Source: Anaerolineae bacterium
Lineage (GTDB): Bacteria > Chloroflexota > Anaerolineae > Anaerolineales > Anaerolineaceae
Assembly (NCBI GenBank): GCA_013177815.1
Contig: JABLXM010000013.1
Location: forward strand, 1-51,065
DNA length: 51,065 nucleotides
Direction: 5' to 3'
The number at the start of each line of letters is the position of its first letter. The first letter of the stretch is position 1. The notes beneath the pieces were generated by a model. That model worked only from the letters and a program-made list of their open reading frames with translations. It searched no databases and had not been told where the DNA came from. This document shows, piece after piece, positions 7,895 through 47,810 of this stretch. The position numbers were made by a program, and so were the translations under genes.

Positions 7895-7936
7895 GGTTCC
7901 CTCCACACTCCATAATTGGAGAAAATTCGTATAAAT

Positions 7937-24877: not shown

Positions 24878-24913
24878 TGAACTTCCCCAGAAAAAATGGA
24901 CAACCAGTTAAGG
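24878..24913. repeat. IS left inverted repeat
   Basis: Begins TGAACTTC and ends AGTTAAGG, matching the reverse complement of 26104-26139. Confidence 0.88.
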
Positions 24914-24943
24914 GAAATCTATAATCAAAACTGGAGGAAGTTC

Positions 24944-26901: not shown

Positions 26902-28005
26902 ATGACTCAACCAACGCGAGTGGCGGTGATTGGTGTGGGGCAAATCGGTCAGGTTCATTTACAAACTTATCTGAATATGCCCGATGTGGAAGTGATTGCA
27001 ATTGTCGGGCGCGACCCGCAGCGCACAACCGCGGTTGCAGAACGCTATCACATCAAGCACTGGACAATTGATTACCACAGCCTTCTGGAGAGCATGGAGA
27101 TCGATGCAGTGAGCGTCTGTTTGCACAATAATTACCATAAACCGGTCGCAGTGGCTGCCCTGCAAGCAGGCAAGCATGTATATTGTGAAAAACCGATCGC
27201 CGGCACCTACCGGGATGGACTGACCATGGTTCAAGCCGCTGAAAAAAGCAGGAAGTTGCTTTCCATCCAGCTTGCCAGCCTGTTCAGTCCACAGACCAAA
27301 GCTGCCCAGCACGCCATACAGCAAGGTTGGCTTGGAAAGCCTTATCACGCCCATTCGGCAGGGTTTCGGCGGCGGGGGCGACCGTACGTGGATGGGTATG
27401 GTTCTCCAGCGTTTGTTCAAAAATCTCAAGCGGCGGGCGGTGTATTGCTGGATATGGGGGTTTATTTTTTGGGCAGCCTGTTGTATTTGTTGGGGAATCC
27501 CGCTCCGCTGTGCATCTGCGGACAGACTTACCAGGAGACACCGATTGACCCGCACCGGCTGGAACAATCAGAATACGATGTGGAAGAAATGGGGTTGGGG
27601 TTCATACGCTTGGCGGGGGGAATTACTCTCACCCTGGCGCAAGCCTGGGCGATGCATCTGGATTCGCTCGGCGGGTCCTACCTTGTCGGATCAGAAGGGG
27701 GCATCCGGCTGGAGCCGTTCGCCTTGTTCCGAAGTCTGGGGGACTTGGATCTCGATGCCACCGCCGACATGGACCATTTCATGTTCCGGCTTCACAATAT
27801 CAGGGAGCAAGGACCCGCCTGGGAAAGCCCACAGCATCATTTTATCGCCGCGGTTCGGGGTCAGGTAGAGCCACTGCCAACTGCCGAGATCACGCTGAAC
27901 ACTTTGTTGATCTCAGAAGGAATCTATCTCTCCAGCGCATTGGGTCGGGAAGTTGGCGTTGATGAGGTTATGACGCAATCAAAGACGACCGCAGTAGATG
28001 TTTGA
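26902..28005 (+). CDS. Gfo/Idh/MocA-family NAD(P)-dependent oxidoreductase
   Basis: 367 residues; AAGGAAGGA lies 7-8 nt before the ATG at 26902. The N-terminal Rossmann fold has 'VAVIGVGQIGQVH' near residues 7-19 and the family 'EKPI' Lys (HVYCEKPIAGTY) near 95-100, the catalytic lysine region. The C-terminal beta-sheet domain carries 'AGGVLLDMGVYFLGSLLYLLG', the substrate-side helix. Members oxidise or reduce sugars, sugar acids and inositols. It converges on the LacI gene at 28037 with only 31 bp between stops, so it is transcribed toward the GRE operon and not from it. Given the neighbours, a sugar-related substrate is likely, but none can be named. Confidence 0.92.
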   Translation: MTQPTRVAVIGVGQIGQVHLQTYLNMPDVEVIAIVGRDPQRTTAVAERYHIKHWTIDYHSLLESMEIDAVSVCLHNNYHKPVAVAALQAGKHVYCEKPIAGTYRDGLTMVQAAEKSRKLLSIQLASLFSPQTKAAQHAIQQGWLGKPYHAHSAGFRRRGRPYVDGYGSPAFVQKSQAAGGVLLDMGVYFLGSLLYLLGNPAPLCICGQTYQETPIDPHRLEQSEYDVEEMGLGFIRLAGGITLTLAQAWAMHLDSLGGSYLVGSEGGIRLEPFALFRSLGDLDLDATADMDHFMFRLHNIREQGPAWESPQHHFIAAVRGQVEPLPTAEITLNTLLISEGIYLSSALGREVGVDEVMTQSKTTAVDV

Positions 28006-28036
28006 GCGAACGCGCTTTGCAAGGCGGTGCAATACT

Positions 28037-29059
28037 TCAAGACCTGGGAACGGAGACGGATTGGCGGATGATCAGTTCCGGCAATAACTGGATCCGTGCA
28101 GGGGTAGTTCTGCCAATGGATTCGTTTGCCTGAATGCGCTGCATCAAGAGTTCAACCGCTTTAACTGCCATTTCGCGGATGGGGACCGCCACAGTGGTGA
28201 GCGGAGGATAAGCCGTCAGGCACAACGCCAAACCGTCCGCGCCGACTACTGAAATGTCATCCGGCACCCGCAATCCGGATTCCCACACAGCGCGAATAAC
28301 CCCCAAGGCAATGATATCGTTATAAGCGAGGACGGCGGTCGGAGTGTGGTTGTTTTCCAAAAGGCTGAGGGTGGCTTTATATCCCAGCAAGGGGGAAGCT
28401 TCACCGGTAAAGACCATGCGCAGTTCTTCGCCGCATTGGAACTGGCGGCAAAACTGTTCGTAGCCTGCCAAGCGTTCCACTTCGAAGGACTTGACCGGTT
28501 CTGGACCGATATAGGCGATCCGGCGGTGCCCAAGATCCGCCAGGTATTGCATAGCAGATCGATTGCCGTTGACGTTATCGACCCCCACGATATCCAGGGA
28601 TACAGCAGGGATATTGTTGAGCAAGATGACCGGACAACCTTCGCGTGATAATTGTTCCAATAAATGGATGTTCTCCATATTCTCATGGGCGGAGACGATT
28701 AATCCGTCACTGCGGCGCGCCACCAAGCTTTCGATCCCAATGCGTTCCTTGTGAGGATTGTTTCCGCTGCTGTATATCAGGGTAGCATACTGATAACTTT
28801 CAGCAGCGTTCTGGATGTGCTGCGCTAATTCCCCGAAGAATGACCAGGGGATGTCATTGATAACCAAGCCGATCGAGAAAGTTCGTTCACTGACCAGACT
28901 GCGTGCCACCAAGTTGGGGCGGTAGCCCAGTTGGCGCGCCAGTTCTTTGACTTGTTCCCGCACCTCGGTCGAAATACGAGGATCGTCCTTTAAGGCGCGC
29001 GAAACGGTGGAATTTGCCAGATTCAGTTGCCTGGCGATATCGGCGATCGTTACGCGCAT
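28037..29059 (-). CDS. LacI-family transcriptional regulator, last gene of the glycyl-radical operon
   Basis: 340 residues from the ATG at 29059 (AGGA upstream). Residues 2-50 are a LacI helix-turn-helix with hinge: 'TIADIARQLNLANSTVSRAL' and 'GYRPNLVARSL'. The rest is a periplasmic-binding-protein-like sensor domain ('SIGLVINDIPWSFFGELAQHI', 'GHRRIAYIGPE', 'AVLAYNDIIALG', 'DDISVVGADG'). It is 12 bp downstream of the GH42 gene and so should be made from the same promoter as the GRE. Three copies of the palindrome ATGCAAACGTTAGCAT, with the central CG usual for LacI targets, lie upstream of that operon and in the divergent promoter region. It is the best candidate to bind them, repressing both arms and itself until a sugar ligand appears. 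Confidence 0.93.
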   Translation of the reverse strand: MRVTIADIARQLNLANSTVSRALKDDPRISTEVREQVKELARQLGYRPNLVARSLVSERTFSIGLVINDIPWSFFGELAQHIQNAAESYQYATLIYSSGNNPHKERIGIESLVARRSDGLIVSAHENMENIHLLEQLSREGCPVILLNNIPAVSLDIVGVDNVNGNRSAMQYLADLGHRRIAYIGPEPVKSFEVERLAGYEQFCRQFQCGEELRMVFTGEASPLLGYKATLSLLENNHTPTAVLAYNDIIALGVIRAVWESGLRVPDDISVVGADGLALCLTAYPPLTTVAVPIREMAVKAVELLMQRIQANESIGRTTPARIQLLPELIIRQSVSVPRS

Positions 29060-29071
29060 CAATCCATTCCT

Positions 29072-31195
29072 TTATGCCTGGGATTCATCGCACTTGAGGT
29101 GAAACAACGCACCAGACCTGGCAGCTATGCTGAATGAGAGCGTATTCAATGACTGCTGCTGGCATTCACCCTTGCCGCTGGATTCGAAGAATCGCACAGA
29201 CAACTTAAATTCTACCTTAATTATCAAGGGAGACCGCGTATAGTTCACCATGCTCAGATACCTATCTCGACCAGCGTGAAACAGGCGGACCAAGGCGCCG
29301 GCAGGACAGTTTAGCTCGCCAATCGATGGATAGCCGTTTGGCTGCATCCAACGGCACACCGCTTCACCAACGGCACGACCATATGAACTGGTGAGGGTGT
29401 TGGACGGAAAAGTTCCAATCCAAACCGCCATGCCTTTACCCGCATTACATCGAATCACGGCTGCCTTCCCATCCGAGAAAGATGCCAACACCTCCGCTTG
29501 GGGGCCGACCTCATGAAAATATTGACGGTAGTGGCTGCCGAAGAAGAAACGGTCTTCCGGCTGGTTTTCGATATCATCCGCCCAGCGGATAACCAAATCA
29601 TCCGCCTTATCCAACTCGGGACGGCTGGCATGGAAAAGCCTTTGGAAATGCGAGAGATCACGCCGGAGCACCCCGCGCTCGTTATATAGCCCGCAAGCGG
29701 CTTCCACCACCAGTCTGCCGCCATCCAAGGCGTATGCTTCAAGGGCGTTCAATTCAGCATCGGATAACGCCACTGCTGCCGGGACATAAAGGGTTGCAGG
29801 CATGGGTTGGTCCCCGGCGATGAGCGCATCAGAATGCAGCATGCGCACCGGGATTCCGCCTTCGAAGCAGGCGCGGTAGGCGCCGTACAAGGCATGGGCG
29901 TAAAACGATTCGCCTTGATTTGCCGCATGAAAGTACAGATCGGCGGTGCGAGAGACCAGGATGGCATTTAATTCGGGAGCGCGCTGGCAGATGCTGAAAG
30001 CGGGTAGACAGTTGAAATCGGCTGCACACTCAGAGGCTGCCGCAGTACGATCAGACCCCCCTCCATCCAGGCTGGTCAACCCAAACCCGGGCGACTCAAG
30101 CCCGCTTGGTTCAGGGCGCCATTGCCAGTAGAGCAATCCCTTGGCGCCGGCGCTGACCGCGCCCCAATTCCACAAGCGAATCTCATCCGGCGTGGCGGTT
30201 GGACGCCCATAGGCTTCCCACTTGCTGATGCCGGGTTGCAGTTCACTTTGCCAGAATTGCTTGCCTGCGCTTGCAGCCGCAACCATCTCCACATGGAGCA
30301 GGTGTTGGACGAAGTCGTTGTTCATCAGCCATTTGGGAAAGCTGGTCAACCCGAACTGGTCCACCTTTCTGGATAGCAGGAACTCATCCCCCAGCAACTG
30401 AGCCAACCCCCCATCACCGGTGCTACCAAGATACCCGCTGAAAGGCATGTGGGTCATGACCGGAACTTGCCCGGCGAATGGGCGAGCAGCGTTGACCCGC
30501 TCCTCCAGCCAACGGTTGAGATTGTGCAACCAGAACAACCGCCAGTCGATCATGTCCGGGTAAGTGCCAAAGCGGCGCGGCGGCAGGGCATCATCCCAGG
30601 CAGTGTAGGCGCGGTGCCAAGCATGGTTTAATGCATCCAGATGCGGATATTTTTCTTGCAACCACGCCAGCCAACGACGCTGTGAATGATCACAATAACA
30701 GAATAATGCGTTGGGGTAATCCCACGCTGGTTCGAGATGGGGTTCATTCCAGACATCGAAAGCAGCCATCACCGGGTGATTGGCATAACGCCGGACAACG
30801 GTGGCAATGAAGTTGGCAACCAATGATTGCACAGCCGGGTGATCGGCACAAAGCCCCGGTGAACCTCCCGAAGGCAAGTTGGCTGCGCCGCCGACATTCA
30901 CCGCGTGATCAAGCTCAGTTGTGTAGCGGGCATCCGGATATTCGCGGGCTGCCCAATACGGCACCCCTTCGGGAATCAGATTGATGACTGCTTTCAGACC
31001 GTACCGGGTGCACAGGTCAAGCAGTTGGTCAAGGTCTTCGAAATAGCATTCCCCCGGTCGACGTTCAATCCAAGACCAGACCGCCCATAATTTAATGGTA
31101 TTGAAACCACATTGGCGCATGTTCTGAAAATCAAGGTGCCAATCCGCCTGGATCGGATACGGTGGTCGGTAATACTGGCTGCCATAAATGATCAT
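29072..31195 (-). CDS. GH42-like beta-galactosidase-type glycoside hydrolase
   Basis: 707 residues from the ATG at 31195, with GGGAGGG 4 nt upstream. The TIM barrel (about 1-370) has the GH42 signature start 'GSQYYRPPYPIQADWHLDF'-type, the acid/base Glu151 in 'FDVWNEPH' and the nucleophile Glu318 in 'FWQSELQPG'. The usual alpha/beta trimerisation-type domain follows ('LDGGRLVVEAACGLYNERG'), then a beta domain. No signal peptide, so it acts in the cytoplasm on imported oligosaccharides or glycosides. Its place between the GRE activase and LacI ties it to the island. Typical GH42 enzymes release galactose from beta-galactosides, but relatives differ; substrate uncertain. Confidence 0.9.
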   Translation of the reverse strand: MIIYGSQYYRPPYPIQADWHLDFQNMRQCGFNTIKLWAVWSWIERRPGECYFEDLDQLLDLCTRYGLKAVINLIPEGVPYWAAREYPDARYTTELDHAVNVGGAANLPSGGSPGLCADHPAVQSLVANFIATVVRRYANHPVMAAFDVWNEPHLEPAWDYPNALFCYCDHSQRRWLAWLQEKYPHLDALNHAWHRAYTAWDDALPPRRFGTYPDMIDWRLFWLHNLNRWLEERVNAARPFAGQVPVMTHMPFSGYLGSTGDGGLAQLLGDEFLLSRKVDQFGLTSFPKWLMNNDFVQHLLHVEMVAAASAGKQFWQSELQPGISKWEAYGRPTATPDEIRLWNWGAVSAGAKGLLYWQWRPEPSGLESPGFGLTSLDGGGSDRTAAASECAADFNCLPAFSICQRAPELNAILVSRTADLYFHAANQGESFYAHALYGAYRACFEGGIPVRMLHSDALIAGDQPMPATLYVPAAVALSDAELNALEAYALDGGRLVVEAACGLYNERGVLRRDLSHFQRLFHASRPELDKADDLVIRWADDIENQPEDRFFFGSHYRQYFHEVGPQAEVLASFSDGKAAVIRCNAGKGMAVWIGTFPSNTLTSSYGRAVGEAVCRWMQPNGYPSIGELNCPAGALVRLFHAGRDRYLSMVNYTRSPLIIKVEFKLSVRFFESSGKGECQQQSLNTLSFSIAARSGALFHLKCDESQA

Positions 31196-31231
31196 TGATC
31201 CCTCCCAATTCACAATGTGTGATCGTCCTGC

Positions 31232-32167
31232 TCAACCGACGCGGATGGCATCGTAGCCATATTGGCGAATCTGTGTGAGCCAGTTCTCGATCACGTCAGG
31301 GGATGTGGTCTTCAACCCAGACAGATGATCCGGTAAACCTATCCGGCTGCGTTTGCCGCTGCCCATATTATGGTACGGCATGAGTTCGATACCCTGTAGG
31401 TTGGGATATTTGATCCCAAGTTGGGCAATTGCCTGCAAATGGTCGGGCTGGTCGTTCAAGCCTGGCACCAGTGGGCAGCGTAAAATGATGCGGGCATTCT
31501 CCTGATAGAGGTACTCGAGATTGGACAGGATGGTCTGGTTGGGTACGCCCGTAAGTTGTTTGTGCAATTCACTGCCGGTGGCTTTGTAGTCGATCAGGAA
31601 GAGGTCAACGTACGGCAGGACCCTGGTGAATGCGTCCTGGGGAGCGTAGCAGGATGTATCTAGGCAGGTGTGCACTCCCTCATCCTGGCATCGTTTCAGA
31701 AGCGCCAGCGTAAAATACAATTGAGCCATTGGCTCGCCTCCGGAGAAGGTCACACCACCACCGGAAGCGCGGTAAAAATCAAGGTCAGCCAAGATCTCAG
31801 GCATCAACTCATCTACGGTGGTTTGCTGCCCGAAGATCTGCAGCGCCTGATAATTGCAGGCATCGATGCAAGCGCCGCAGGCATCGCAAAGTTCATAATT
31901 GATCACGTGCCGACCCACGCTGACGATATGCGCTTGCCAGAGGCAGGCATCGGCACAGGCACCGCAAAGCCGGCACCGTTCGATGTTGAGGCTGACTTGT
32001 GGGTGAAAAGAGTACGATTCTGGATTGTGGCACCAAACGCAGCACAGCGGGCATCCTTTCAGGAAAACCACAGTGCGCAACCCGGGACCATCGTGCAGCG
32101 CAGCGCGCTGAACATCGAATATGATACCCACGGGTGCGGCAGCGGCTGCTGGGTGATTATCTGCCAT
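31232..32167 (-). CDS. Glycyl-radical enzyme activase (radical SAM)
   Basis: 311 residues. The radical SAM cluster motif CX3CX2C is in 'LKGCPLCCVWCHNPES' near residues 40-50. Two ferredoxin-type [4Fe-4S] motifs follow: 'CRLCGACADAC' and 'CDACGACIDAC', the inserted domain found in activases of dehydratase-type GREs rather than in the small PFL activase. 'GGGVTFSGGEP' is the SAM-contact loop. The protein generates the glycyl radical on the GRE, encoded 38 bp upstream in the same operon. It works only without oxygen, so the operon fits anaerobic growth. Confidence 0.95.
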   Translation of the reverse strand: MADNHPAAAAAPVGIIFDVQRAALHDGPGLRTVVFLKGCPLCCVWCHNPESYSFHPQVSLNIERCRLCGACADACLWQAHIVSVGRHVINYELCDACGACIDACNYQALQIFGQQTTVDELMPEILADLDFYRASGGGVTFSGGEPMAQLYFTLALLKRCQDEGVHTCLDTSCYAPQDAFTRVLPYVDLFLIDYKATGSELHKQLTGVPNQTILSNLEYLYQENARIILRCPLVPGLNDQPDHLQAIAQLGIKYPNLQGIELMPYHNMGSGKRSRIGLPDHLSGLKTTSPDVIENWLTQIRQYGYDAIRVG

Positions 32168-32205
32168 ATGCCATGAACACCATCGAGGAGCGGCAAGAGA
32201 TTGGG

Positions 32206-34467
32206 CTAATAGGTCGTCCGGCTGAGTATCTCAACCTGCACATCACGGGGTAAATCCACGAAGCGGGCGCTGAACCCGCCAACACGGACGAAAAGGTCGC
32301 GATAAGCTTCTGGTTGTTCAAGGGCGCGTTCCAGGTCGCCACGGTTGATGACGGTGACCATCAACTGGCACCCTCCCTTATCGAAATAAGTACCCAGGAT
32401 GGCGTCGAACTTTTCGCGCTGATTCGTGAAGAGGTCACGCCCAAACCGAATATTCTGCACCGCGCCGGCGTGAATCGCCGGACTGGGTTTAACGACCGAG
32501 TTGAGGAGCGCGGTAACGCCTTTCTTATCGCTGCCCCCGGAAGGGGTGTTGGCATTTGCCATCGGCATGCCCGCCTTGCGCCCATCCGCCGAGGCACCCA
32601 CCCACCGGGCGAGGGTTGTATTCTGGGAGTTATTGATGATCACATCCAGGTACCAGTGCAAATTCGTGCGCTGCCGCTGATCTCGGATGGTGTTGCACAG
32701 GAAGTTGTGCAGTTCCACCAGCATGCCATCGGCGTCGGGGTCATCATTTCCATATTTTGGACAATCAAGCATCATGCGACGCTCGTGCTCGAAACCTTCG
32801 AAATTGGCGTGCAAGGCTTGCAGCATTTGTTCGGGGGTGAAGCGCTTTTCATCGTAGACCAGTTGACGGATCGCAGTCAGGCTGTCGGCTGCATTGACAT
32901 TGCCGTAGGATTCGAGTGAGCCGCCCAAGTAACGCACGCCACCGTCGAATATGCCAAGGTTGCGCGGCAAACAGTCGTCGTACAGCATACTGAGGAAGAG
33001 GTAAGGCGCTGTTTTGCCTGTGATAACGTATTCAAGCTCCTCGTGGTCCGCCAGCACCTCAATGAACAAGCGTAGTTGTTCCTTATAGGCTTCCCACAGA
33101 TCATCGAAACTGCGGAAATCATGGAATTCACCGGTTTGCAGCCCCATCTGTTTGCCGGTGATCGGATCGCGCCCGTTGTGTAGGGTAATCTCCAGCGCCT
33201 TGAGCATGTTCAGGGCACCGCTGGGTGTGCCAAACCCCATGTGGTCGATGACGATCTCACCGCAACCAAGCGGGACATACTGCTCGGCGTCTTCCAGGGG
33301 CACATCGTGAGCGAACTGGACGCTGGGGATGAGGACGTCGTCGTTGTAAAGCAGAGGATAGGTGTGCCCCTCCCCAATCAGTTCGGTCGCTTTTTCCATC
33401 AAGAGGGGGTTCATGCCTTTGTAGAACCGCAATGTCAATTGCGGAAGGATGGCTCGCCCGTAGGTCCGTGCGGTTTCCATTGCCAGCAAGGCAAATCGAT
33501 CGGCGTTGGCTTCATTTGGGCGTCCCCGTCCTCCAATGATGACCCGACCATCCACTTCGCGGAATTGGTCGTTGATGAGACGCCAGAGCGAGCGCATCAA
33601 TGCCAGCGCATCATCTTTCGTGAGAATCCCACGCTCCAGGTCCCGCACATAGAAATCCCCCAGGTAAACATCCATGCGACCCATTTCCAGCGTTCCACAC
33701 ATCAGGGTATACAGCCAAGACATTTGCAAAGCTTCCCGGAACGTCTCAGGAGGTTGGCAGGAGATATTCTGAAGGCAGATTGAGATCTGTTGCAAGCCCG
33801 CTTTGGCTGCCGGCTCTGCCGCGTGGTCTGCCAACTCCTGCGCGTGGCGGGCATAATACTGGCATGAGTCGGCAAAGACCTGCAGGGCGATCAGCATTCC
33901 TTCGTAGAGGGAGGCATCCTGCCCATTGTCAAGGGCGGCTTTCTGATGGGACTGCAATTCCTCCACCAGCCCGGGAATACCGAGGTTGAGCAGCTTGGTG
34001 TAATTTACAAAGACGCCCGCCATGCGGTAGATCGGTTGCGCCACCATGGGTTTGTAATTGAAAGGCAGGGGCTCCAATTCATCCCGGAACAAGTAAGGCT
34101 TCATGCGGTCATCGAAAGCCGCTTCCACCAACGCCTGGGAAGTCTCCTTTTTCCAAAAGTGAAGCATGTCAAAGCCCCGTTCTCTTTGATCGAACGGCAC
34201 GCTGCTTTTTTCCAGGGCGCGGATGATTTTCCGCTCATCGCAATAATACCCATAACCGCTTTCGGGCGGGTTGTTGTGAGGGCTGAAGCCCACCAATCCC
34301 CATTGAATGCGACCCGCTAACAAGTCGCCAGGTTGAATAGCGGTTAAGACGGACGGGAATTGCTCCCGCAGGCACATGGCTTCGCGGATGGCGATCGGAG
34401 CATGATAATGACGACGATAAGCTTCAGTGAAGCGCAATTCCATCGACAAGTCAGCCGTTTCGGGCAT
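32206..34467 (-). CDS. Glycyl radical enzyme (PFL-like, dehydratase/lyase type), substrate unknown
   Basis: 753 residues, of normal family length. The thiyl Cys402 is in 'YVPLGCGEIVID'. The C-X-E pattern (Glu404) is shared by glycerol, diol, choline and isethionate GREs, whereas pyruvate formate-lyase has two adjacent cysteines. So a C-O or C-C bond-breaking lyase or dehydratase is likelier. The glycyl radical loop near the C-terminus is 'VRVGGFSARFVDL', with Gly731 the probable radical site. 'GCGE' in place of the usual 'GCVE' may mark an unassigned clade. It leads an operon with the activase, GH42 glycosidase and LacI, driven by a consensus promoter overlapping a LacI-type operator. The substrate is probably derived from the imported glycoside or sugar; I cannot name it. 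Confidence 0.93.
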   Translation of the reverse strand: MPETADLSMELRFTEAYRRHYHAPIAIREAMCLREQFPSVLTAIQPGDLLAGRIQWGLVGFSPHNNPPESGYGYYCDERKIIRALEKSSVPFDQRERGFDMLHFWKKETSQALVEAAFDDRMKPYLFRDELEPLPFNYKPMVAQPIYRMAGVFVNYTKLLNLGIPGLVEELQSHQKAALDNGQDASLYEGMLIALQVFADSCQYYARHAQELADHAAEPAAKAGLQQISICLQNISCQPPETFREALQMSWLYTLMCGTLEMGRMDVYLGDFYVRDLERGILTKDDALALMRSLWRLINDQFREVDGRVIIGGRGRPNEANADRFALLAMETARTYGRAILPQLTLRFYKGMNPLLMEKATELIGEGHTYPLLYNDDVLIPSVQFAHDVPLEDAEQYVPLGCGEIVIDHMGFGTPSGALNMLKALEITLHNGRDPITGKQMGLQTGEFHDFRSFDDLWEAYKEQLRLFIEVLADHEELEYVITGKTAPYLFLSMLYDDCLPRNLGIFDGGVRYLGGSLESYGNVNAADSLTAIRQLVYDEKRFTPEQMLQALHANFEGFEHERRMMLDCPKYGNDDPDADGMLVELHNFLCNTIRDQRQRTNLHWYLDVIINNSQNTTLARWVGASADGRKAGMPMANANTPSGGSDKKGVTALLNSVVKPSPAIHAGAVQNIRFGRDLFTNQREKFDAILGTYFDKGGCQLMVTVINRGDLERALEQPEAYRDLFVRVGGFSARFVDLPRDVQVEILSRTTY

Positions 34468-34556
34468 AGCTCAGTTTCCCTTTCCGAACATCGATCAAAA
34501 ACCGCGCAACCGGTGGTTTGTTGAGGGCAAACACTGGTGAAGAGAAAACAGGATTT

Positions 34557-34572
34557 ATGCTAACGTTTGCAT
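34557..34572. promoter_or_regulatory. LacI-type operator 1 (GRE operon)
   Basis: ATGCTAACGTTTGCAT, the reverse complement of operators 2 and 3. It overlaps the last two bases of the minus-strand -10 and the start site. Confidence 0.8.
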
Positions 34573-34599
34573 TATATCGCCTACATGCACACCTGTCAA
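34571..34599 (-). promoter_or_regulatory. Consensus sigma-70 promoter of the GRE operon
   Basis: On the minus strand TTGACA (34594-34599) and TATAAT (34571-34576), both perfect, are exactly 17 bp apart. Transcription would start near 34564, inside operator 1. Such a strong promoter needs a repressor. Confidence 0.88.
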
Positions 34600-34819
34600 T
34601 AGGGAGGACATTTCCACCAGCGGCGTGACCAGTCGATCTCCAGATTTGCTCTGACTGCTGCTCTTAAAATGTCGCATACAGTCCTTGAGATCAATTTCAT
34701 ATTCGTTTCCATAGGAGCACAAAATCAAACAGGGCAAGCATGGAACCGCCCGAGCCACATGATAATTGGATGATGGTTAGTGGCATGGGCATTCTGGCAT
34801 CTGGATCAAAGGCAAGCTA

Positions 34820-34848
34820 TTGACAAATGGATTGAAATCAACTAAAAT
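34820..34848 (+). promoter_or_regulatory. Sigma-70 promoter of the DeoR-ABC arm
   Basis: TTGACA (34820-34825) and TAAAAT (34843-34848) are 17 bp apart. As in the divergent promoter, the operator begins with the last two bases of the -10. The leader to deoR would be about 580 nt. Confidence 0.75.
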
Positions 34849-34862
34849 GCAAACGTTAGCAT
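34847..34862. promoter_or_regulatory. LacI-type operator 2
   Basis: ATGCAAACGTTAGCAT. The conserved 19-bp form AATGCAAACGTTAGCATAA is shared by all three sites. It covers the start of the plus-strand promoter. Confidence 0.8.
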
Positions 34863-34993
34863 AATTGGATATCATAGTCCAAATTACACTAGGCATGGGT
34901 CGTCACAGTTATCCGGATTATGCTATCGGTTCCACTGGCGATTTTTTATGTTGAATAGTCAATATCAAGCAAATATGCTGGGTTGGCTTTCAA

Positions 34994-35009
34994 ATGCAAA
35001 CGTTAGCAT
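34994..35009. promoter_or_regulatory. LacI-type operator 3
   Basis: ATGCAAACGTTAGCAT, 147 bp from operator 2. A weaker promoter (TTGAAT 34951-34956, TATGCT 34974-34979, 17 bp) lies just upstream. It may be an auxiliary site for DNA looping. Confidence 0.75.
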
Positions 35010-35432
35010 AACAAATATTACCACCTATGATTGTTTTCCTGGTTCATGGTTTTTGGGGTCAAGGTGAGCCGTACACATTATCAAACCCTCTTGACTTAAG
35101 GATTGGATATGTGCTAATATGATACAAAATAACAAAATCACACATTAAACAACAATAACAAACATTGAATTGAGTGCGGCGGACTGATCGATGCATGCAC
35201 TAACCAAGATAGCCTACAACCGACTATCACGATAAGAGCATAAACGAAGATCCAACATGTCAACTCCTCACCAAGTAAATCAGATTCAGTATTTCCTGGC
35301 ACCAACCCTGATAGGCATGATATTTATGCCGATTCGCGCGTTCGTCGTATCTCACAGATATCTAAAGATTGACCTGTGCCTGGATAGTCATGATCGGTCT
35401 ATGATCCAATGTGCGCTGAAGGAGGGAATGAA

Positions 35433-36203
35433 ATGTTAGCTGCTGAACGGCAAAAGATCATTTTGGACGTCTTAGCGCGCAACCACTCGGTGGAAGTTGT
35501 GGAACTTGCCATTGACTTCAAAGTATCGGAAATGACCATCCGACGCGACTTGCTGAAATTGGAGCAGGCAGGTCTGTTGAGACGCACCTTTGGAGGGGCG
35601 GTATCGGTCTCTTCACCGCTGGCATTACAAATGTCGGTCATTGAGAAAGAATCCGTCCATCAGCAGGATAAGATCGCCATTGGCTTGGCAGCCGCACAAC
35701 TGATCCGCGATGGTGAGACCGTTGGCATCGGCGCAGGCACCACCTGCGCCCAAGTCGGCAAACACCTTTGTGAGGACCGGAGCATCACAGTGGTGACCAA
35801 CGCGCTCAATATCGCGTCCGACCTGGCACACCGCCGATGTGTTCAGTTGATGGTCACCGGGGGGACAGTGGTTGAACGTTCACTTGCCCTGGTTGGTCCG
35901 TTTGCCGAGGCGATTTTCGACCAGGTTCACATCAACAAATTGTTCCTCGGCGCCACCGGCGTGACTTATGACCAAGGGGTAACAACGCAGGACCTGATGG
36001 AAGCCTCCCTGTATAAAGCCATGATCAGCGCTGCCCAGGAGGTCATCATCGTCGCCGATTCGAGCAAGTTGGGGCTGGTGACCTTCGCCCCTATGGTCCG
36101 CATTGAATATGTCACCAAGCTGGTGGTGGACGCCCAGGCGTCGGAAGAGTACCTCGAAAAGATCAACCGCATGGGTGTGGAGATTATCATTGCCAAAGAA
36201 TAA
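35433..36203 (+). CDS. DeoR-family transcriptional regulator
   Basis: 256 residues from the ATG at 35433, with GGAGG 7-8 nt upstream. Residues 3-55 are a DeoR winged helix ('AAERQKIILDVLARN', 'VSEMTIRRDLLKLEQAGLLRRTFGGAV'). The rest is the DeoRC sugar-phosphate-binding domain with the 'GIGAGTTCAQVGKHL' phosphate loop and 'LGATGV..GVTTQDLMEA' motif. Regulators of this type respond to phosphorylated sugars, which the PfkB kinase encoded next would produce. It is the first gene of the rightward operon, and its 3' end overlaps the kinase start. So the island has two regulators: LacI (free sugar) and DeoR (sugar phosphate); this division is inference. Confidence 0.93.
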   Translation: MLAAERQKIILDVLARNHSVEVVELAIDFKVSEMTIRRDLLKLEQAGLLRRTFGGAVSVSSPLALQMSVIEKESVHQQDKIAIGLAAAQLIRDGETVGIGAGTTCAQVGKHLCEDRSITVVTNALNIASDLAHRRCVQLMVTGGTVVERSLALVGPFAEAIFDQVHINKLFLGATGVTYDQGVTTQDLMEASLYKAMISAAQEVIIVADSSKLGLVTFAPMVRIEYVTKLVVDAQASEEYLEKINRMGVEIIIAKE

Positions 36204-37155
36204 AAAACCTGATCCGGGACGCCCCGTCTACGTGTTGGGGGAGATCGTAATCGACGTGATCTTATACGATCCGTCAAGCATCTGTGTCTTCGATCAGCCC
36301 GTTTGGGCAAGAGATATCCGCTTTATGCTCGGGGGTTCTGCCAGTTATGTGGCTCAGGGATTGAATGCGTTAGGTTGCCCGGTCGTCATCAATAGTTTTG
36401 CCGGAGACGATGATTTGACCAGCCAGCTGTTGCGGAGTTTGGATCGGCAGGGATTGGATACCGGAGCGGTCCTTCGCCAGGCAGGCGTACGAACTTCGAT
36501 ATGCATCGGTGTCTCGGATAAGGGCAAGAAGCGCTTCATCGGGTGTTCGCTCTTTGCACCATATCCATCTGAACTGTTGGCTGAGCCCCCCTCGAACGCA
36601 TCCCTAGTCTATTTTGGCGGGTTGGCAATGTATCCAGACCTTTGGGATGGCAGGCTGGCTGCCTACCTTGAAGCCGCGGGAAAACACGCCTGGGTGATCA
36701 TGGATACACAGATGTTACCCATCCCGGCTGAAAAATATCGAACCCAGGCAATCAACTGGCACAATTTACATCCAGTTGATGTTTTGCTGGTCAATCGGGC
36801 TGAAGCAATGGCGCTGACCGGTTTACACCAACCCGACGATGCAGGCAGGGCTTTGCTGGAATTCGGTCCGAAATGCGTAGTGGTCAAACTCGGCAGTGAC
36901 GGTGCTCTGGCGGTGCAGGCAGGCACAAGTGTGACGCTGGTCAGCAAATCCTGGTCTGTGAAGGTGGAGGAACCGGTCGGCGCGGGTGATTTCTTTGGAG
37001 CGGGATTATCGTTCGGTTTGCTGCAAGGTTGGGGAATGCAACGCTGCCTCGACTTTGCCAATGTCTTTGCCGGGCTCGTCATCAGCCGCCAGACGGGCGA
37101 TATGCCGGATCTTGCTCGTACGCTGGAAATCATGGAATCTCATTTTCTTGGATAG
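36190..37155 (+). CDS. PfkB-family carbohydrate kinase
   Basis: 321 residues from the TTG at 36190, chosen because GGAG sits 8 nt upstream and it gives the usual short N-terminus; it overlaps deoR by 14 bp. A GTG at 36175 is an alternative. Family motifs are 'VYVLGEIVIDVI' at the start, the substrate-side 'GGSASYVAQGLNALG' with 'FAGDDDLTSQLL', and the C-terminal signature 'EPVGAGDFFGAGL' with the catalytic Asp. 'VVKLGSDGALAV' is the ATP-side strand. It phosphorylates a sugar or sugar-like compound in the cytoplasm. Its product may be the substrate of the GH4 enzyme downstream, or the DeoR effector. Confidence 0.9.
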   Translation: MPKNKKPDPGRPVYVLGEIVIDVILYDPSSICVFDQPVWARDIRFMLGGSASYVAQGLNALGCPVVINSFAGDDDLTSQLLRSLDRQGLDTGAVLRQAGVRTSICIGVSDKGKKRFIGCSLFAPYPSELLAEPPSNASLVYFGGLAMYPDLWDGRLAAYLEAAGKHAWVIMDTQMLPIPAEKYRTQAINWHNLHPVDVLLVNRAEAMALTGLHQPDDAGRALLEFGPKCVVVKLGSDGALAVQAGTSVTLVSKSWSVKVEEPVGAGDFFGAGLSFGLLQGWGMQRCLDFANVFAGLVISRQTGDMPDLARTLEIMESHFLG

Positions 37156-37177: not shown

Positions 37178-38455
37178 ATGAAAGAAATCAAGATTGGAGT
37201 GATCGGTAGTGGCAGTACATACAACCCTGAGCTGATCGAGGGCTTGTTGAAGCGCCGGGAAGAGTTACCGGTGGCAGAGATTGCCTTGATGGATATCAAT
37301 CCTGAAAGACTGGAGATCACCGGCGCCCTAGCGGAGCGCATGGTCAAAAAGGCAGGTGTCAATACCAGGGTCATCAAGACCCTTGACCGTAAGGTAGCGA
37401 TGGATGGCGCTGATTTCGTCATCACCCAGATCCGGGTGGGGTTAATGGAAGGCAGGGCGCGGGATGAGCGTATTCCGCTTGAGTTTGGGGTCATCGGTCA
37501 AGAGACCACCGGTCCCGGTGGATTTTCCATGGCGTTGCGCACCATCCCGGTTATGCTGGAAATTGGCAGGGAGATGGAAAAGCTTTCGCCTAATGGCTGG
37601 ATGATCAACTTCACCAATCCTTCTGGTCTGGTAACCGAAGCGCTCAATCACCACACAAAAATGCGCATGATCGGGCTTTGCAATTCGCCGATCACACTAC
37701 AAAACCGGCTGGCGACCCTCTTTAACATTAGCAAGGACCGAATATGGATGGATTACTTCGGCTTGAATCATCTTTCTTTCATCAGCAAAGTGTTTCTCGA
37801 TGGTGATGATGTCACAGCAGAAGTGATTAAACGGATTAGCGAGGGAGATGCCCGGGAACTGCCGGGGTATCCCTTCAATCCAACCGTCTTAAAAGCGCTG
37901 GGAATGATTCCAAATGGATACCTGCAATTCTTCTATCACCGTGACAAGCTTCTGGAGAAATTGATGTCTTCTCCCGGCAGGGCAGAGACGGTCATGAAAA
38001 TCGACGGCGAGTTGCTGGAGCTGTACAAGGATCCAAATTTGAATGAGAAACCCAAAATTCTTGAACAAAGGGGAGGCGCATGGTATTCGGACGCTGCATG
38101 CGCCTTGATCAGTGCCATGGTGAACGACAAGAAGGAAGTACATATTGTTAATGTCAAGAACCAGGGAGCAATCGGTGGATTGGGAGCAGAAGATGTCGTT
38201 GAAGTGCCGGCATTGATCAAGCGCTCGGGAGCGTATCCAGTGGTGATGGGAGAGATGCCGTTAAGCGTGCGTGCTCTCATCCAAACGGTGAAGACATACG
38301 AACTCCTCACCGTCAAAGCTGCGGTCGAGGGCTCACGAGATGCCGCTATCCTTGCGTTGGTGAATCACCCCCTGGTTCCTTCGGTGGATATCGCTGAGCA
38401 ATTGTTTAACCGCATTCTCGAAGAGAATCGTGAGTGGTTGCCTCAGTTCAAATAA
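37178..38455 (+). CDS. GH4-family NAD-dependent glycosidase (6-phospho-beta-glucosidase-like)
   Basis: 425 residues; AGGAG precedes the ATG at 37178. An N-terminal Rossmann fold opens with 'IKIGVIGSGSTYNPELIEGLL'. The family block 'GVIGQETTGPGGFSMALRTIPVM' follows near 110-132. The metal-binding Cys is in 'GLCNSPITL' and the metal-binding His in 'FGLNHLSFI'. GH4 enzymes need NAD+ and Mn2+ and cleave by a redox and elimination route. The sequence style fits 6-phospho-beta-glucosidases (LicH/BglT type) better than alpha-galacturonidases. A PTS usually supplies the phosphate, but here there is an ABC importer and a kinase, so the kinase may phosphorylate the glycoside inside the cell. It is 22 bp after the kinase. 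Confidence 0.93.
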   Translation: MKEIKIGVIGSGSTYNPELIEGLLKRREELPVAEIALMDINPERLEITGALAERMVKKAGVNTRVIKTLDRKVAMDGADFVITQIRVGLMEGRARDERIPLEFGVIGQETTGPGGFSMALRTIPVMLEIGREMEKLSPNGWMINFTNPSGLVTEALNHHTKMRMIGLCNSPITLQNRLATLFNISKDRIWMDYFGLNHLSFISKVFLDGDDVTAEVIKRISEGDARELPGYPFNPTVLKALGMIPNGYLQFFYHRDKLLEKLMSSPGRAETVMKIDGELLELYKDPNLNEKPKILEQRGGAWYSDAACALISAMVNDKKEVHIVNVKNQGAIGGLGAEDVVEVPALIKRSGAYPVVMGEMPLSVRALIQTVKTYELLTVKAAVEGSRDAAILALVNHPLVPSVDIAEQLFNRILEENREWLPQFK

Positions 38456-38477
38456 CAGCACAAAGGGACGCATCAAT

Positions 38478-39452
38478 ATGGCTAAACGATTAATCGAAGC
38501 ATCACCATCAATCCTGGCGGCGTTATCCGGAAAAGAATTATTGGATAGCCTGCGCATCTGTGGCGGGCGGGCGGTATCGGCGGAGGTAGTTGCATTCCAG
38601 CCAGCGCTTATCGATGGCGTTAGCAATGCAGCGCTTTCAGCAGCCTTTGGCGCCGATATCATTCATTTCAATCACTATGATGTTGATAAACCCCAAATCG
38701 CCGGCATGCCATCCATCCCAGAAGGCATAGCCGCCTGGGAACAAGCAGGTATTGCCTTGAGACCTAATGACCAGGTCGAAGGACCTTCCGGTAGTTTCTT
38801 CAAAAACTTGGGGTTGGGGATGACGTTGCGGGATGTCCGTCAGCAGATCGGGCGTGTGGTCGGGGTCAGTCTGGAGGTTGATTTTGATGGAGCGGATGCG
38901 CCGGCTGGCAGGGTTGCCTCCCCAGAGACCGCGCGGAAAGCGCTGGCGCAGGGGGCAGCATACATTACGCTTATTGGCACGCCCGCTCATACTCCTGATG
39001 TGTTAGCTAAAAATATTCTGCGGTTGCGACAGGCGCTTGGAGACGAGGTCGTGCTCTCGGCTGGTCGCATGCCGTGGGGTGGATCACGACCGGGGATGCC
39101 AGATTTTCTGCTTTCTGCAGAAGTGGAAACACTGGCTGAATCAGGTGCGAATATTGTGGTAATCGCCGCACCCGGAACCATGCCTGGGGCAACCATCGAA
39201 GAAGTTCAATCCTCTGTGAATGCTGCTCACCGGCATGGTTTACTCGCAAAGGTCACGATTGGCACCTCTCAAGAGAGTGCTGATGAAAGCACAGTCATCC
39301 GCTTAGCACTGGATGGGAAACTGACCGGTGCCGATATTTTCCAGATTGGAGATGGTGGTTTCTGTGGTATGTCGATTCCGGAATCGATACTTGCGTTCAG
39401 CATAGCGATAAAAGGCCGGCGTCATACCTATCGAAGAATGGCAATGTGTTAG
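38478..39452 (+). CDS. Predicted TIM-barrel protein (DUF7916-like)
   Basis: 324 residues from the ATG at 38478, 22 bp after the GH4 gene. The start 'RLIEASPSILAALSGKELLDSL' and the blocks 'SAAFGADIIHFNHYDVD', 'GVSLEVDFDGA', 'GAAYITLIGTPAHTPD', 'LAESGANIVVIAAPGTMPGA' and 'ADIFQIGDGGFCGM' have strand-helix periodicity of an alpha/beta barrel. They recall a family of PEP-mutase-like proteins of unknown function found beside sugar-uptake operons (DUF7916, from memory). No catalytic residues can be assigned. Position in the operon suggests it acts on the same sugar, or as an aldolase, isomerase or mutase step. Confidence 0.7.
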   Translation: MAKRLIEASPSILAALSGKELLDSLRICGGRAVSAEVVAFQPALIDGVSNAALSAAFGADIIHFNHYDVDKPQIAGMPSIPEGIAAWEQAGIALRPNDQVEGPSGSFFKNLGLGMTLRDVRQQIGRVVGVSLEVDFDGADAPAGRVASPETARKALAQGAAYITLIGTPAHTPDVLAKNILRLRQALGDEVVLSAGRMPWGGSRPGMPDFLLSAEVETLAESGANIVVIAAPGTMPGATIEEVQSSVNAAHRHGLLAKVTIGTSQESADESTVIRLALDGKLTGADIFQIGDGGFCGMSIPESILAFSIAIKGRRHTYRRMAMC

Positions 39453-39557: not shown

Positions 39558-40913
39558 ATGAAGCTTCATAAGTTGTTCACGATCCTGTTGCTGGGGGCGG
39601 TCATTCTTTCTGCTTGTGGACCCGCCGCTACACCAGCGGAGGAAGTTCATGAGACTACTGCTCCTCCAGCCGAAGCCACCGCTGTACCGCCAACCGAGGA
39701 GCCAGCCGTTGAAGCCAAACCGGTTGTCGTCTCAGTGTGGACATCTGACCTGAAAGCCGTCCAGTTGGCTGCAGAAGCCTACACCGCCGAAACAGGCAAG
39801 CCGGTGACGGTTCAGGAAATTGCCCGCGATGTGTTGCAGGAAAAAGAAAAGACCGAGTTGACCTCCAAGACCGGCGCGATCGACATCCTGTACGTGCCGT
39901 CTGAGTGGCTTGCCGAATTGGCTGAAGGCGGGCTGGTTGAACCATTGGATGAGTATATGGCAAACCCAGAACTCCTGCAGCCAGATCAATCGGACTGGGC
40001 ATCTCCCGGTTCTGTTGATGCCTACCGCTATAAGGACAGTCTGTATGGTTTTCCGGTTTCGATGGATACCTTGTTCCTTTATTACCGCAAAGACCTCATT
40101 GAAACGCCTCCGGAAACCTGGGATGATTTCTTGAGAATTGCCCAAGAACAGACGACTGCCGAGCGGTATGGAACGACCATTTTTGGCAAGTTGCCCGAAT
40201 CGATCTCTTGGGATTTCATCAACTACTTCTGGGGCTTCGGTGGTGAACTGCTGGATGAGAACTTCCACCCCACTGTGAACTCGGAAGAGGGCGTTGCAGC
40301 GTTGACGTTCTTCACGGATCTCCTGAACAAATACCAGGTTGTCCCACCGGGTGTGCCGACCTATGAATATCCAGAAGTTTTGGCTGCCTTCCAGCAGGAT
40401 AAAGCTGCTATGGTTATTCAGTGGAATGCTGCCTATCAATCATTTGTTGATCCGGAACAATCGCCCTTGATCTATGACAAATTCGAAACCACCGTTTTGC
40501 CCGGGATGAAAATGGACGATGGAACGATCTATCGCAGGAGCATCGGGCACGTGTGGGGCTTTGTCATGAACGCCAGTTCAACGAACAAGGAAGAGGCTTA
40601 TAACTTCTTGGTTTACTTGACCAGCAAAGAAGGATTGAAATTCTTCCCGGACAACGCGGATAGCAAGAATGTCAATTCGAAAGCCATATTGAACGACCCC
40701 GCCATGCTTGAGGCGCATCCTGAATATGCCTATTTGGCGGATTCCTTCCAATATATGTCATTATGGCCAACAACCCTTGCTACCAGCCAGCTTATCCTGA
40801 CATTGGCTCAGGAAGCGTCGGCTGCTCTTGCTCAGACCAAGTCCCCCCAGGAAGCGATGGATGATGCTCAACAAGCAATTGATGAGTTAATGCAGGAGGC
40901 GGGGTACTACTGA
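39558..40913 (+). CDS. ABC sugar transporter, solute-binding lipoprotein
   Basis: 451 residues; AAGGAG lies 9 nt before the ATG at 39558. Lipobox 'AVILSAC' at Cys20 anchors it outside the membrane, followed by a Pro/Ala/Glu linker. The mature part is an extracellular solute-binding protein of family 1 ('VVVSVWTSDLKAVQLAAEAYTAET', 'AIDILYVPSEWLAELAEGGLVEPLDEY', 'YGFPVSMDTLFLYYRKDLIETPPETWDDFL', 'FQQDKAAMVIQWNAAY', each in part). Aromatic residues and Asp/Glu in the cleft suit a sugar or oligosaccharide. It is the first gene of the transporter set; a stable hairpin after it may keep its mRNA level above that of the permeases. Confidence 0.95.
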   Translation: MKLHKLFTILLLGAVILSACGPAATPAEEVHETTAPPAEATAVPPTEEPAVEAKPVVVSVWTSDLKAVQLAAEAYTAETGKPVTVQEIARDVLQEKEKTELTSKTGAIDILYVPSEWLAELAEGGLVEPLDEYMANPELLQPDQSDWASPGSVDAYRYKDSLYGFPVSMDTLFLYYRKDLIETPPETWDDFLRIAQEQTTAERYGTTIFGKLPESISWDFINYFWGFGGELLDENFHPTVNSEEGVAALTFFTDLLNKYQVVPPGVPTYEYPEVLAAFQQDKAAMVIQWNAAYQSFVDPEQSPLIYDKFETTVLPGMKMDDGTIYRRSIGHVWGFVMNASSTNKEEAYNFLVYLTSKEGLKFFPDNADSKNVNSKAILNDPAMLEAHPEYAYLADSFQYMSLWPTTLATSQLILTLAQEASAALAQTKSPQEAMDDAQQAIDELMQEAGYY

Positions 40914-40969: not shown

Positions 40970-40983
40970 AGTGGATGGTGCTC

Positions 40984-41859
40984 ATGAAAAAGATAAAGAG
41001 ACGAGGTTTTATCCAGGCGTTACCATTTATCGCACCTGCAATAATCATCATTGTGGTTGTTCTCATTTATCCATTATTGTATACATTCGGGTTAAGTTTC
41101 TTCGATTATTCGATCGCGAGGGGTTTACGTTTTTCGGGTCTTGGCAATTATATAAAGATAATCCATGATGATAAATTTATCACTTCGCTGATCAATACGC
41201 TTTATTACACCGTCGTCGTTGTCACAGTGGAAGGGACTCTTGGATTTATTCTTGCCAGTATTCTCAATCAAGAATTTCCTGGGCGAGGTTTGATTCGCGG
41301 ATTGCTGATGATCCCAATGCTTACATCGCCAATAGTCTCCGCCATCACGTGGCGCTTCATGTATAACCCTGATTTTGGAATCATCAATTATTTGTTCTCA
41401 CTGGTCGGATTACTTCCCCAAGTGTGGACAGGAGATCCGAAAACCGCTCTACCTTCGATCATGATCGTCGATATTTGGGAATTCACACCATTCGTCATGC
41501 TGCTGTTGCTGGCGGGATTACAATCGATTCCACAAGAGCAATATGAGGCTGCCATGATCGACGGCGCAGGCTCTTGGGCGCGCACGCGGTATATCACAAT
41601 ACCCTGGTTGCGCCCCATGATTCTGGTTGTTTTACTCCTGCGTACGATGGATTCGATAAAAATATTTGACCAGGTATATGCATTAACTGCGGGTGGTCCC
41701 GGCGTCAGCTCGATGACGTTGGGCGTATATGCCTATATCAATGGGTTCCGGAATTTCCACCTTGGCTACGCAGCAACTATCTCATGGGTCCTGGCGCTGA
41801 TCACGATTGCAATTTGTGCCTTCTACATCCGCTCGATCCAAGTGCCTGATCATGCTTGA
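40984..41859 (+). CDS. ABC sugar transporter permease (MalF/UgpA type)
   Basis: 291 residues from the ATG at 40984; an ATG at 40975 is an alternative. Six membrane segments are visible, the first at 'PAIIIIVVVLIYPLLYTFGLS'-type. The cytoplasmic EAA loop that docks the ATPase is 'EQYEAAMIDGAGSWARTRYITIPWL'-type. It pairs with the next permease to form the membrane channel. The stop at 41859 is 51 bp before the second permease start. The transported compound is unknown but is expected to be the glycoside or sugar processed by the island's enzymes. Confidence 0.95.
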   Translation: MKKIKRRGFIQALPFIAPAIIIIVVVLIYPLLYTFGLSFFDYSIARGLRFSGLGNYIKIIHDDKFITSLINTLYYTVVVVTVEGTLGFILASILNQEFPGRGLIRGLLMIPMLTSPIVSAITWRFMYNPDFGIINYLFSLVGLLPQVWTGDPKTALPSIMIVDIWEFTPFVMLLLLAGLQSIPQEQYEAAMIDGAGSWARTRYITIPWLRPMILVVLLLRTMDSIKIFDQVYALTAGGPGVSSMTLGVYAYINGFRNFHLGYAATISWVLALITIAICAFYIRSIQVPDHA

Positions 41860-41910
41860 GAGAGTTCATGATTTCCAGAATTCTATTTGTGTCGGATGGG
41901 GTTCACAACC

Positions 41911-42744
41911 ATGAAAAATAAAACCAAGACAAAAATTCAGCGAAGCATAAGCCATATTTTTTTGACAGTTGTTTTGATCTTTTTCCTGTTTCCTATTTTC
42001 TGGATGTTTATGACATCCATCAAACAGCCTCAAGATACCTTTGCCATTCCCCCGGTCTGGTTCTTCAAACCTACCTGGGATAATTACACCACTACATTCA
42101 TCGAACAGGGATATTATAAGTATTTGATAACCAGTTTTGAAGTTACGATTATTGCTGTCTTCATCGCCACCTGTGTCAGTATCCTGGCTGCCTATGCCAC
42201 TTCCAGGTTTCAGTTCAAGGGAAAATCCCAAATGTTGTTGAGTTTATTGGTCTTCTACACGATTCCTGGGATCGCGTATGCCATACCTCTTTACATGATC
42301 TACGGGAACCTGAAAATCCAAGACACGCCTCTGGGCTTGATCATCATCTTTACAGCATTGACCATTCCATTCTCCACCTGGGTGCTCCATGGCTATTTTG
42401 TTTCCATCCCGCGCGACCTCGAAGATTGCGCCATGGTGGACGGTTGTTCCCGGTTGGGAGCATTGGTCCGCATCGTTCTACCCCTATCTGCGCCCGGCGT
42501 AGCGGCAACCACAATTCTCACCTTCATCTCGACCTGGAACAACTTTCTATACCCGGCTATCTTGGCGGGATCAAAGACAAAAACGCTGACCGTGGCGATG
42601 TCTGCCTTTATCCATGACCTGAAAATTGAATGGGGACAGGCGTCGGCGGTTGCCTGCGCTGTGATCGTTCCTGTTTTAATCCTAATCCTGGTTGCGCAAC
42701 GGTACATCATTATCGGGTTGGTAGCCGGGGCGGTTAAGGAGTGA
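41911..42744 (+). CDS. ABC sugar transporter permease (MalG/UgpE type)
   Basis: 277 residues from the ATG at 41911; in-frame starts at 41896 and 41887 are possible but less good. Six membrane segments, with the periplasmic 'MFMTSIKQPQDTFAIPPVWF' loop after the first helix, as usual for MalG-type permeases. The EAA loop is 'LEDCAMVDGCSRLGALVRIVLP'-type. No ABC ATPase gene follows in the operon; many Gram-positive-type and Chloroflexota sugar importers share one ATPase (MsiK/UgpC type) encoded elsewhere. It is followed by a strong hairpin at 42754-42785. Confidence 0.95.
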   Translation: MKNKTKTKIQRSISHIFLTVVLIFFLFPIFWMFMTSIKQPQDTFAIPPVWFFKPTWDNYTTTFIEQGYYKYLITSFEVTIIAVFIATCVSILAAYATSRFQFKGKSQMLLSLLVFYTIPGIAYAIPLYMIYGNLKIQDTPLGLIIIFTALTIPFSTWVLHGYFVSIPRDLEDCAMVDGCSRLGALVRIVLPLSAPGVAATTILTFISTWNNFLYPAILAGSKTKTLTVAMSAFIHDLKIEWGQASAVACAVIVPVLILILVAQRYIIIGLVAGAVKE

Positions 42745-45877: not shown

Positions 45878-45911
45878 GCATGAACTATACGAGGGAAAAA
45901 GGAGATCACCC

Positions 45912-47809: not shown

Positions 47810-47810
47810 A

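Follow-up and report, generated by a model that had tools for sequence, protein, structure and literature searches.

To our knowledge, few glycyl radical enzymes (GREs) act on sugars. The known sugar GREs are YbiW and PflD of E. coli, whose substrates are 1,5-anhydroglucitol-6-phosphate and 1,5-anhydromannitol-6-phosphate (PMC12441222). For many of the GREs abundant in the gut, a function has yet to be assigned (PMC11574389). Residue roles in the active site have been described for the eliminases HypD (PMC7077986) and IslA (PMC8473560), and these descriptions are used below.

The window examined here is the whole stretch of 51,065 nucleotides of contig JABLXM010000013.1 from an Anaerolineae bacterium (assembly GCA_013177815.1). 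It encodes a GRE that belongs to a separate, apparently uncharacterised family, defined by a GC[GT]E motif and repeatedly found among carbohydrate genes.

Gene organisation of the locus

The GRE gene opens a minus-strand operon with the order GRE, activase, GH42 and LacI and with intergenic gaps of 38, 18 and 9 bp:

32206..34467, minus strand: GRE of the GC[GT]E family, 753 aa, with thiyl Cys402, base Glu404 and glycyl Gly731
31232..32167, minus strand: GRE-activating radical-SAM enzyme, with CX3CX2C at CPLCCVWC and two ferredoxin-type 4Fe-4S motifs (TIGR02494, 316 bits against a cut-off of 174)
29072..31213, minus strand: GH42-fold glycosidase, retaining the acid/base Glu157 and the nucleophile Glu324 (PF02449, 153 bits)
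28037..29062, minus strand: LacI-family regulator, final gene of the GRE operon, by domain match

The 753-aa protein matches the PFL-like (PF02901, 395 bits) and glycyl radical (PF01228, 65 bits) Pfam domains. Its Cys loop reads PLGC402GE404 and its glycyl loop RVGG731FSARFVDL. Together with the dedicated activase 38 bp downstream, these features place it in the GRE superfamily. The AlphaFold model (pLDDT 83.7, pTM 0.87) contains the ten-stranded GRE barrel, matching GREs in the PDB at Z 30-38 over ~710 residues. No other PFL-like protein occurs in the source draft genome, which is 88.9% complete.

Open reading frames and domain matches confirm the gene content given by a first-pass annotation, namely a GRE with a GCGE motif, an operon with activase, GH42 and LacI, and a divergent arm with kinase, GH4 and ABC genes. 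The absence of shell and aldehyde or alcohol dehydrogenase genes, also remarked there, was reproduced: none of the 20 window proteins scanned carries a BMC shell, aldehyde dehydrogenase or alcohol dehydrogenase domain.

Several other features lie in the window. A type III-A (Csm) CRISPR operon (Csm1/Cas10, RAMP proteins, Csm4) spans 43179-50515 and begins 0.4 kb past the sugar importer. In this region, neither Pfam nor NCBIfam gave a match to the 502-aa ORF at 49007-50515, and a repeat search of the window showed no CRISPR array. An 822-aa ORF at 22262-24730 has no Pfam or NCBIfam match either. Four tandem copies of ~283-310 nt, 61-71% alike, occupy 6518-7787 inside one minus-strand ORF (6506-7906), and a 34-nt hairpin-like element, CCCTCCGAAG...CTTCGGAGGG, is present in three copies, at 1105, 2802 and 6423.

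Composite structure and predicted regulation

The GRE operon is flanked on both sides by plus-strand genes of a second cassette:

26902..28005, plus strand: Gfo/Idh/MocA oxidoreductase, first gene of the resident GH4 cassette, by domain match (56% identical partner in L087)
35409..36203, plus strand: DeoR-family regulator, AgaR-like, by profile and domain matches (partner in L087)
36103..37155, plus strand: PfkB-family sugar kinase, true start probably ~130 bases inside the ORF (partner in L087)
37178..38455, plus strand: GH4 glycosidase of the NAD-dependent family (69% identical partner in L087)
38430..39452, plus strand: DUF7916 protein (PF25509, 283 bits), TIM-barrel-like by eye only (partner in G011)
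39558..40913, plus strand: ABC sugar importer, solute-binding protein (SBP), by profile and domain matches (partner in L087)
40975..41859, plus strand: ABC sugar importer, permease 1 (partner in L087)
41887..42744, plus strand: ABC sugar importer, permease 2 (partner in L087)

The sugar-type Gfo/Idh/MocA dehydrogenase, DeoR and DUF7916 genes were missing from the first-pass list; DUF7916 has no solved relative. An IS3-type transposase pair (HTH_Tnp_1 and rve integrase) at 24896-26100, ~0.8 kb upstream of Gfo/Idh, may represent a mobile element in the neighbourhood of the insertion described next.

A relative from the same family, G011, carries Gfo/Idh-DeoR-PfkB-GH4-DUF7916-SBP-permease-permease in identical order. 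Seven of its proteins share 49-73% Blast identity with those of the window, and DUF7916 was recognised there through the family model. The G011 cassette has no GRE, activase, GH42 or LacI, and ~230 bp separate its Gfo/Idh and DeoR genes. Since the 7.4-kb block 28006-35408 of the window occupies exactly this gap, we infer that the GRE-activase-GH42-LacI block was inserted into a resident Gfo/Idh-DeoR-PfkB-GH4-DUF7916-ABC cassette. Base composition does not mark the import as recent, since the G+C of the block equals that of its neighbours (55%), so the case for insertion comes only from gene order and phyletic distribution. GH4, PfkB and DUF7916 were discarded as clues to the GRE substrate, given that G011 has the cassette without a GRE. 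The locus had been described as a single glycoside-catabolism island. Its structure is instead composite, with a GH4/kinase/ABC cassette that occurs without the GRE block in G011; in the window, LacI appears to regulate both arms. The resident ABC importer may also serve the GRE module, as the latter lacks the SBP and permeases found in the operons of its relatives.

Joint regulation is suggested by the following elements between the two arms:

34557..34572: candidate operator ATGCTAACGTTTGCAT, touching the -10 of the GRE-operon promoter
34571..34599, minus strand: predicted sigma-70 type promoter, perfect TTGACA-17-TATAAT, reading towards the GRE
34820..34848, plus strand: promoter-like TTGACA-17-TAAAAT (11/12 matches), reading towards the DeoR/GH4 arm
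34847..34862: the candidate operator again, inverted, touching the DeoR/GH4-arm promoter
34994..35009: third copy, inverted, by sequence match

These three mismatch-free copies of the 16-bp element, two of them at predicted strong promoters, lie in a 0.94-kb intergenic region of low G+C (42%), and the rest of the genome holds no copy of like quality. LacI appears to control both divergent arms via predicted operators. Between the operators and DeoR (34572-35408, 0.84 kb), no ORF and no Rfam match was found, and a search of this 0.8-kb region for an RNA element gave folding no better than that of shuffles.

Placement among characterised glycyl radical enzymes

NCBIfam equivalogs for known GRE types were missed by at least 700 bits in every case, in a comparison that included no model for IslA. 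The curated cut-offs for HypD, CutC, HpsG/HpfG, HPAD, IAD and PFL lie at 994-1150 bits, and the window GRE scores 75-292. Individual values are 292 against 1100 for HypD, 246 against 1050 for CutC, 277 against 1000 for the HpsG type, 214 against 1109 for PRK09983, the model used to judge grouping with YbiW or PflD, and 75 against 994 for PFL. The protein also falls outside TIGR01774, the family model that includes glycerol dehydratase, with 322 bits against a cut-off of 678. Three diverse relatives failed the equivalogs in the same way.

Identity to solved GREs is ~25-27%. The best sequence matches among solved structures reach 200-258 bits and are led by N-methyl-hydroxyproline dehydratase (its PDB deposit bears a benzylsuccinate-synthase name), followed by glycerol dehydratase and others; E. 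coli PFL gives 63 bits. When the AlphaFold model was compared by fold, 1,2-propanediol dehydratase (Z 38.5) and glycerol dehydratase (Z 38.3) were nearest, followed by HypD and CutC (Z ~36.5) and by PflD and YbiW (Z ~33-34). This likeness to diol dehydratases carries no information on the substrate.

A maximum-likelihood tree resolves 30 sequences, including that of the window, as one clade (support 100/100) with a long stem, separate from YbiW, PflD, HypD and CutC. Within it, the window GRE and eight others form a sub-clade (support 100/99); the inner branches are rough, as the bootstrap was not fully settled. The first-pass annotation had called the protein a GRE of unassigned type and had named clustering inside a known group as the observation that would overturn this. 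Profiles and tree were both examined for such clustering and showed none, and the unassigned status stands. No description of the GC[GT]E family was found in the open literature; subscription journals might hold a functional report.

Active site

Family rows read GC[GT]E in place of GC[VI]E, and all 30 aligned rows retain Glu404. The family signature combines P-x-G-C-[GT]-E with the glycyl loop RVGGFSARF. Eight further residues (R148, R308, D323, Q343, E519, N612, N613 and H666) are invariant across the same 30 rows and find a matching residue in none of the seven reference rows.

Pocket residues were placed by alignment, not by coordinates. On this basis, the essential His160 of HypD, next to the catalytic Glu and a His also in YbiW, PflD and glycerol dehydratase, becomes Gly151, and Asp278 becomes Gly258. 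The packing aromatic Phe340 is replaced by Asp306, and almost every family row has Asp or Asn at this position. The stretch carrying Ser334 is missing, Thr645 on strand beta-8 corresponds to Asn613, and the beta-1 His-Ser pair of glycerol dehydratase becomes Gly-Thr. From the replacement of the His, the Asp, the aromatic residue, the Ser segment and the Thr, we infer a pocket that would be larger or more polar, as a sugar would require.

Distribution and gene neighbourhoods of the family

Six relatives found in a genome scan are 45-48% identical and come from Spirochaetes and Clostridia; the scan also gave GREs of greater distance, and a plasmid collection added relatives from Persicobacter (40% identical) and Parabacteroides distasonis (38%). 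Because the relatives at 45-48% identity retain the same operon in both groups, the gene pattern around the GRE is not a product of chance. Profile searches, in which family GREs score at least 580 bits and other GREs in those genomes ~310 bits or lower, detected such GREs in the C. asparagiforme family (12 of 397 genomes), a spirochaete class (8 of 198) and the Onthomonas family (2 of 350). Across 301 genomes of the window's own phylum, the window GRE was the sole family member.

The usual operon of the sub-clade consists of a divergent AraC gene followed by GRE-activase-SBP-permease-permease-GH42 (L002, L003, L004, L005 and L060), and the shorter arrangement GRE-activase-GH42 is found in L009 and in the window. 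Locus L006 has no GH42, and the partner is absent from its entire genome (G065). With L075 left out, as a contig end cuts that locus, eight sub-clade loci could be tested. GH42 is present in seven of these eight operons, whereas none of ~20 loci elsewhere in the family has it (Fisher p 7e-6, with no correction for common ancestry). The partner GH42 subfamily (>1100 bits) was found only in GRE-bearing genomes among the sets searched, where other GH42s score at most 333 bits. GRE and GH42 divergences are correlated (r 0.92, Mantel p 0.0002), the pattern that joint inheritance of the two genes would produce. Of the co-occurrence anticipated for both glycosidases, the GH42 half is therefore upheld by these seven operons, whereas the GH4 half fails on the GRE-free GH4/kinase/ABC cassette of G011.

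One 20-kb cluster in G066 (contig C66, ~15.5-35.7 kb; L009/L074) contains three GRE-activase pairs. Two of these GREs belong to the window's sub-clade, and the third is a distant GRE of 728 aa that adjoins a xylose-isomerase-like protein, an ABC importer and Gfo/Idh.

Other sub-clades show different neighbours. NanE, a ManNAc-6-P epimerase, adjoins the GRE in L022, L070, L071 and L088, lies two genes further in L064 and is nearby in L073. It is accompanied by ROK or a mannose-type PTS in L022, L064, L070 and L088, and by neither within reach in L071 and L073. Elsewhere, the family GRE stands beside GH1, ROK and ABC genes (L065, L069), GH2, ROK and SIS (L062), a cellobiose-type PTS (L063), or GH20 and sulfatases (L021); GH20 was noted in Persicobacter. 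Carbohydrate is the common thread of these neighbourhoods, with no single sugar among them. Naming the substrate by gene context was abandoned, since across the family the neighbours include GH42, GH1, GH2, GH20, PTS, ROK and NanE. In Parabacteroides distasonis and in G1024 (L022, 16152-21788, and L088), the GRE accompanied by a ROK kinase and a NanE-type ManNAc-6-P epimerase belongs to a separate sub-clade, possibly with a different sugar.

The partner glycosidase

The galactose-binding residues of BiBga42A are conserved in structurally known GH42 beta-galactosidases (PMC10688820). Compared with such enzymes (BiBga42A, A4-beta-Gal), the partner GH42 retains both catalytic glutamates and the equivalents of Asn159 and Glu366, but its galactose-binding -1 subsite is mostly replaced. 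The equivalents of D285, Y287, W326, F356 and H369 are replaced in seven of seven partner GH42s, and that of R121 is probably replaced too, in a gapped and uncertain part of the alignment. Counting R121 with this uncertainty, six of the ten catalytic and -1-subsite positions compared are changed in all seven. Judged from these residues, the partner probably does not accept ordinary galactose, and the loss of galactose-binding positions makes "beta-galactosidase" an unsafe label. This change in the sugar pocket suggests a glycoside which present annotation would mislabel as an ordinary galactoside.

Proposed function and alternative readings

We consider it reasonably likely that the GRE is a C-O eliminase acting on a sugar or a sugar-derived polyol. 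Elimination of the CxE type, in agreement with the first-pass annotation, is the likeliest chemistry given C402-G403-E404 and the Glu kept in all 30 rows. In the proposed sequence of events, an inducer would release LacI and both divergent promoters, as predicted from sequence, would fire. The ABC importer would take up a glycoside, from which the GH42-fold enzyme, through its two glutamates, would free an unusual sugar or aglycone. The activase would install the radical on Gly731, from where it would move to Cys402. The Cys402 thiyl radical would then abstract hydrogen from a carbinol carbon while Glu404 accepts the hydroxyl proton, and the resulting ketyl radical would expel a vicinal C-O substituent (water, ring oxygen or sugar). 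By analogy with the CxE eliminase class, a deoxy-keto product would enter ordinary sugar catabolism; no gene in the GRE block names this product.

A special case of C-O elimination is ring opening of an anhydro-sugar or anhydro-alditol, with or without a phosphate group, that the glycosidase would supply. YbiW and PflD set the precedent (PMC12441222), a PTS or ROK kinase adjoins many relatives of the window GRE, and the window itself encodes a PfkB kinase. This narrower reading is nevertheless somewhat unlikely, as the enzyme is ~25% identical to YbiW and PflD, lies outside their branches and lacks their His; no transaldolase-like FSA gene is nearby, and the GH42-type operons L002, L003 and L004 have no kinase at all. 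The CxE motif also fits C-N or C-S cleavage, and CutC and HplG are GREs able to break C-N bonds. A C-N lyase acting on an amino sugar, supplied by the glycosidase and, in relatives, by NanE, ROK and GH20, would suit the neighbours seen in other sub-clades: NanE beside or near the GRE in the six loci listed above and GH20 in Persicobacter. The window's DeoR is, moreover, closest to AgaR. Yet NanE tracks another sub-clade, and the operons of the window's own sub-clade contain no NanE, NagA, NagB or other amino-sugar gene, which leaves this option distinctly unlikely.

Dehydration to 3-hydroxypropanal of glycerol from a galactosylglycerol-type compound, an option raised in the first-pass annotation, did not survive comparison and is now scarcely credible. 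The GH42 partner is present, and by fold 1,2-propanediol dehydratase (Z 38.5) and glycerol dehydratase (Z 38.3) come closest, but the TIGR01774 score is 322 against 678 bits, and glycerol dehydratase residues are absent from the pocket (His to Gly151, beta-1 His-Ser to Gly-Thr, aromatic to Asp306) and from the Cys loop. The same rebuilt pocket recurs in relatives beside GH1, GH2, GH20, PTS or NanE genes. No 1,3-propanediol dehydrogenase accompanies the GRE, and with most galactose-binding residues of the GH42 lost, the galactosylglycerol idea loses its main support. An ordinary PFL-type or degenerate GRE parked by chance in a sugar island, with no sugar role, is a very improbable explanation as well. 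Insertion into an existing cassette and absence from ~300 genomes of the phylum would agree with it. Against it, a single GH42 subfamily accompanies the GRE in three phyla, all catalytic residues are intact, and the scores of 63 bits to E. coli PFL and of 75 against 994 bits for the PFL equivalog are not those of a PFL.

Beyond the C-O eliminase reading, we tentatively raise a broader proposal that we hold to be possible rather than probable: the GC[GT]E family would form a new functional class of GREs that use radical chemistry on intact sugars to cleave a C-O bond (glycosidic, anhydro or ring) or a C-N bond. If true, this would define an oxygen-independent route of glycan breakdown across several phyla, including gut Clostridia and Parabacteroides. 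The family occurs in human gut bacteria too, and its culturable carriers (C. asparagiforme, Parabacteroides distasonis and Persicobacter) make the reaction directly testable. It offers a distinct active-site signature and, in the partner glycosidase, a subfamily so far found only with it.

Comparison with described systems

The GRE diol dehydratases, glycerol dehydratase (1R8W) and 1,2-propanediol dehydratase (5I2A), are alike in fold (Z ~38) and share the Cys-x-Glu and Gly loops and the CxE eliminase layout. The window GRE differs from them in sequence (25-27% identity) and in its pocket, where the His, the beta-1 polar pair and the packing aromatic are replaced; its locus also differs from theirs, having no shell and no diol or aldehyde enzymes. 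YbiW and PflD, C-O lyases of anhydrohexitol-6-phosphates, are likewise GREs of sugar catabolism, and relatives of the window GRE also lie near PTS or kinase genes. At ~25% identity, however, the window GRE sits on a separate branch with different pocket residues. Although it misses the equivalog models of HypD, CutC and HpsG/HpfG by at least 700 bits, it has the GRE fold and the equivalents of Cys402, Glu404 and Gly731 in common with these eliminases and with IslA.
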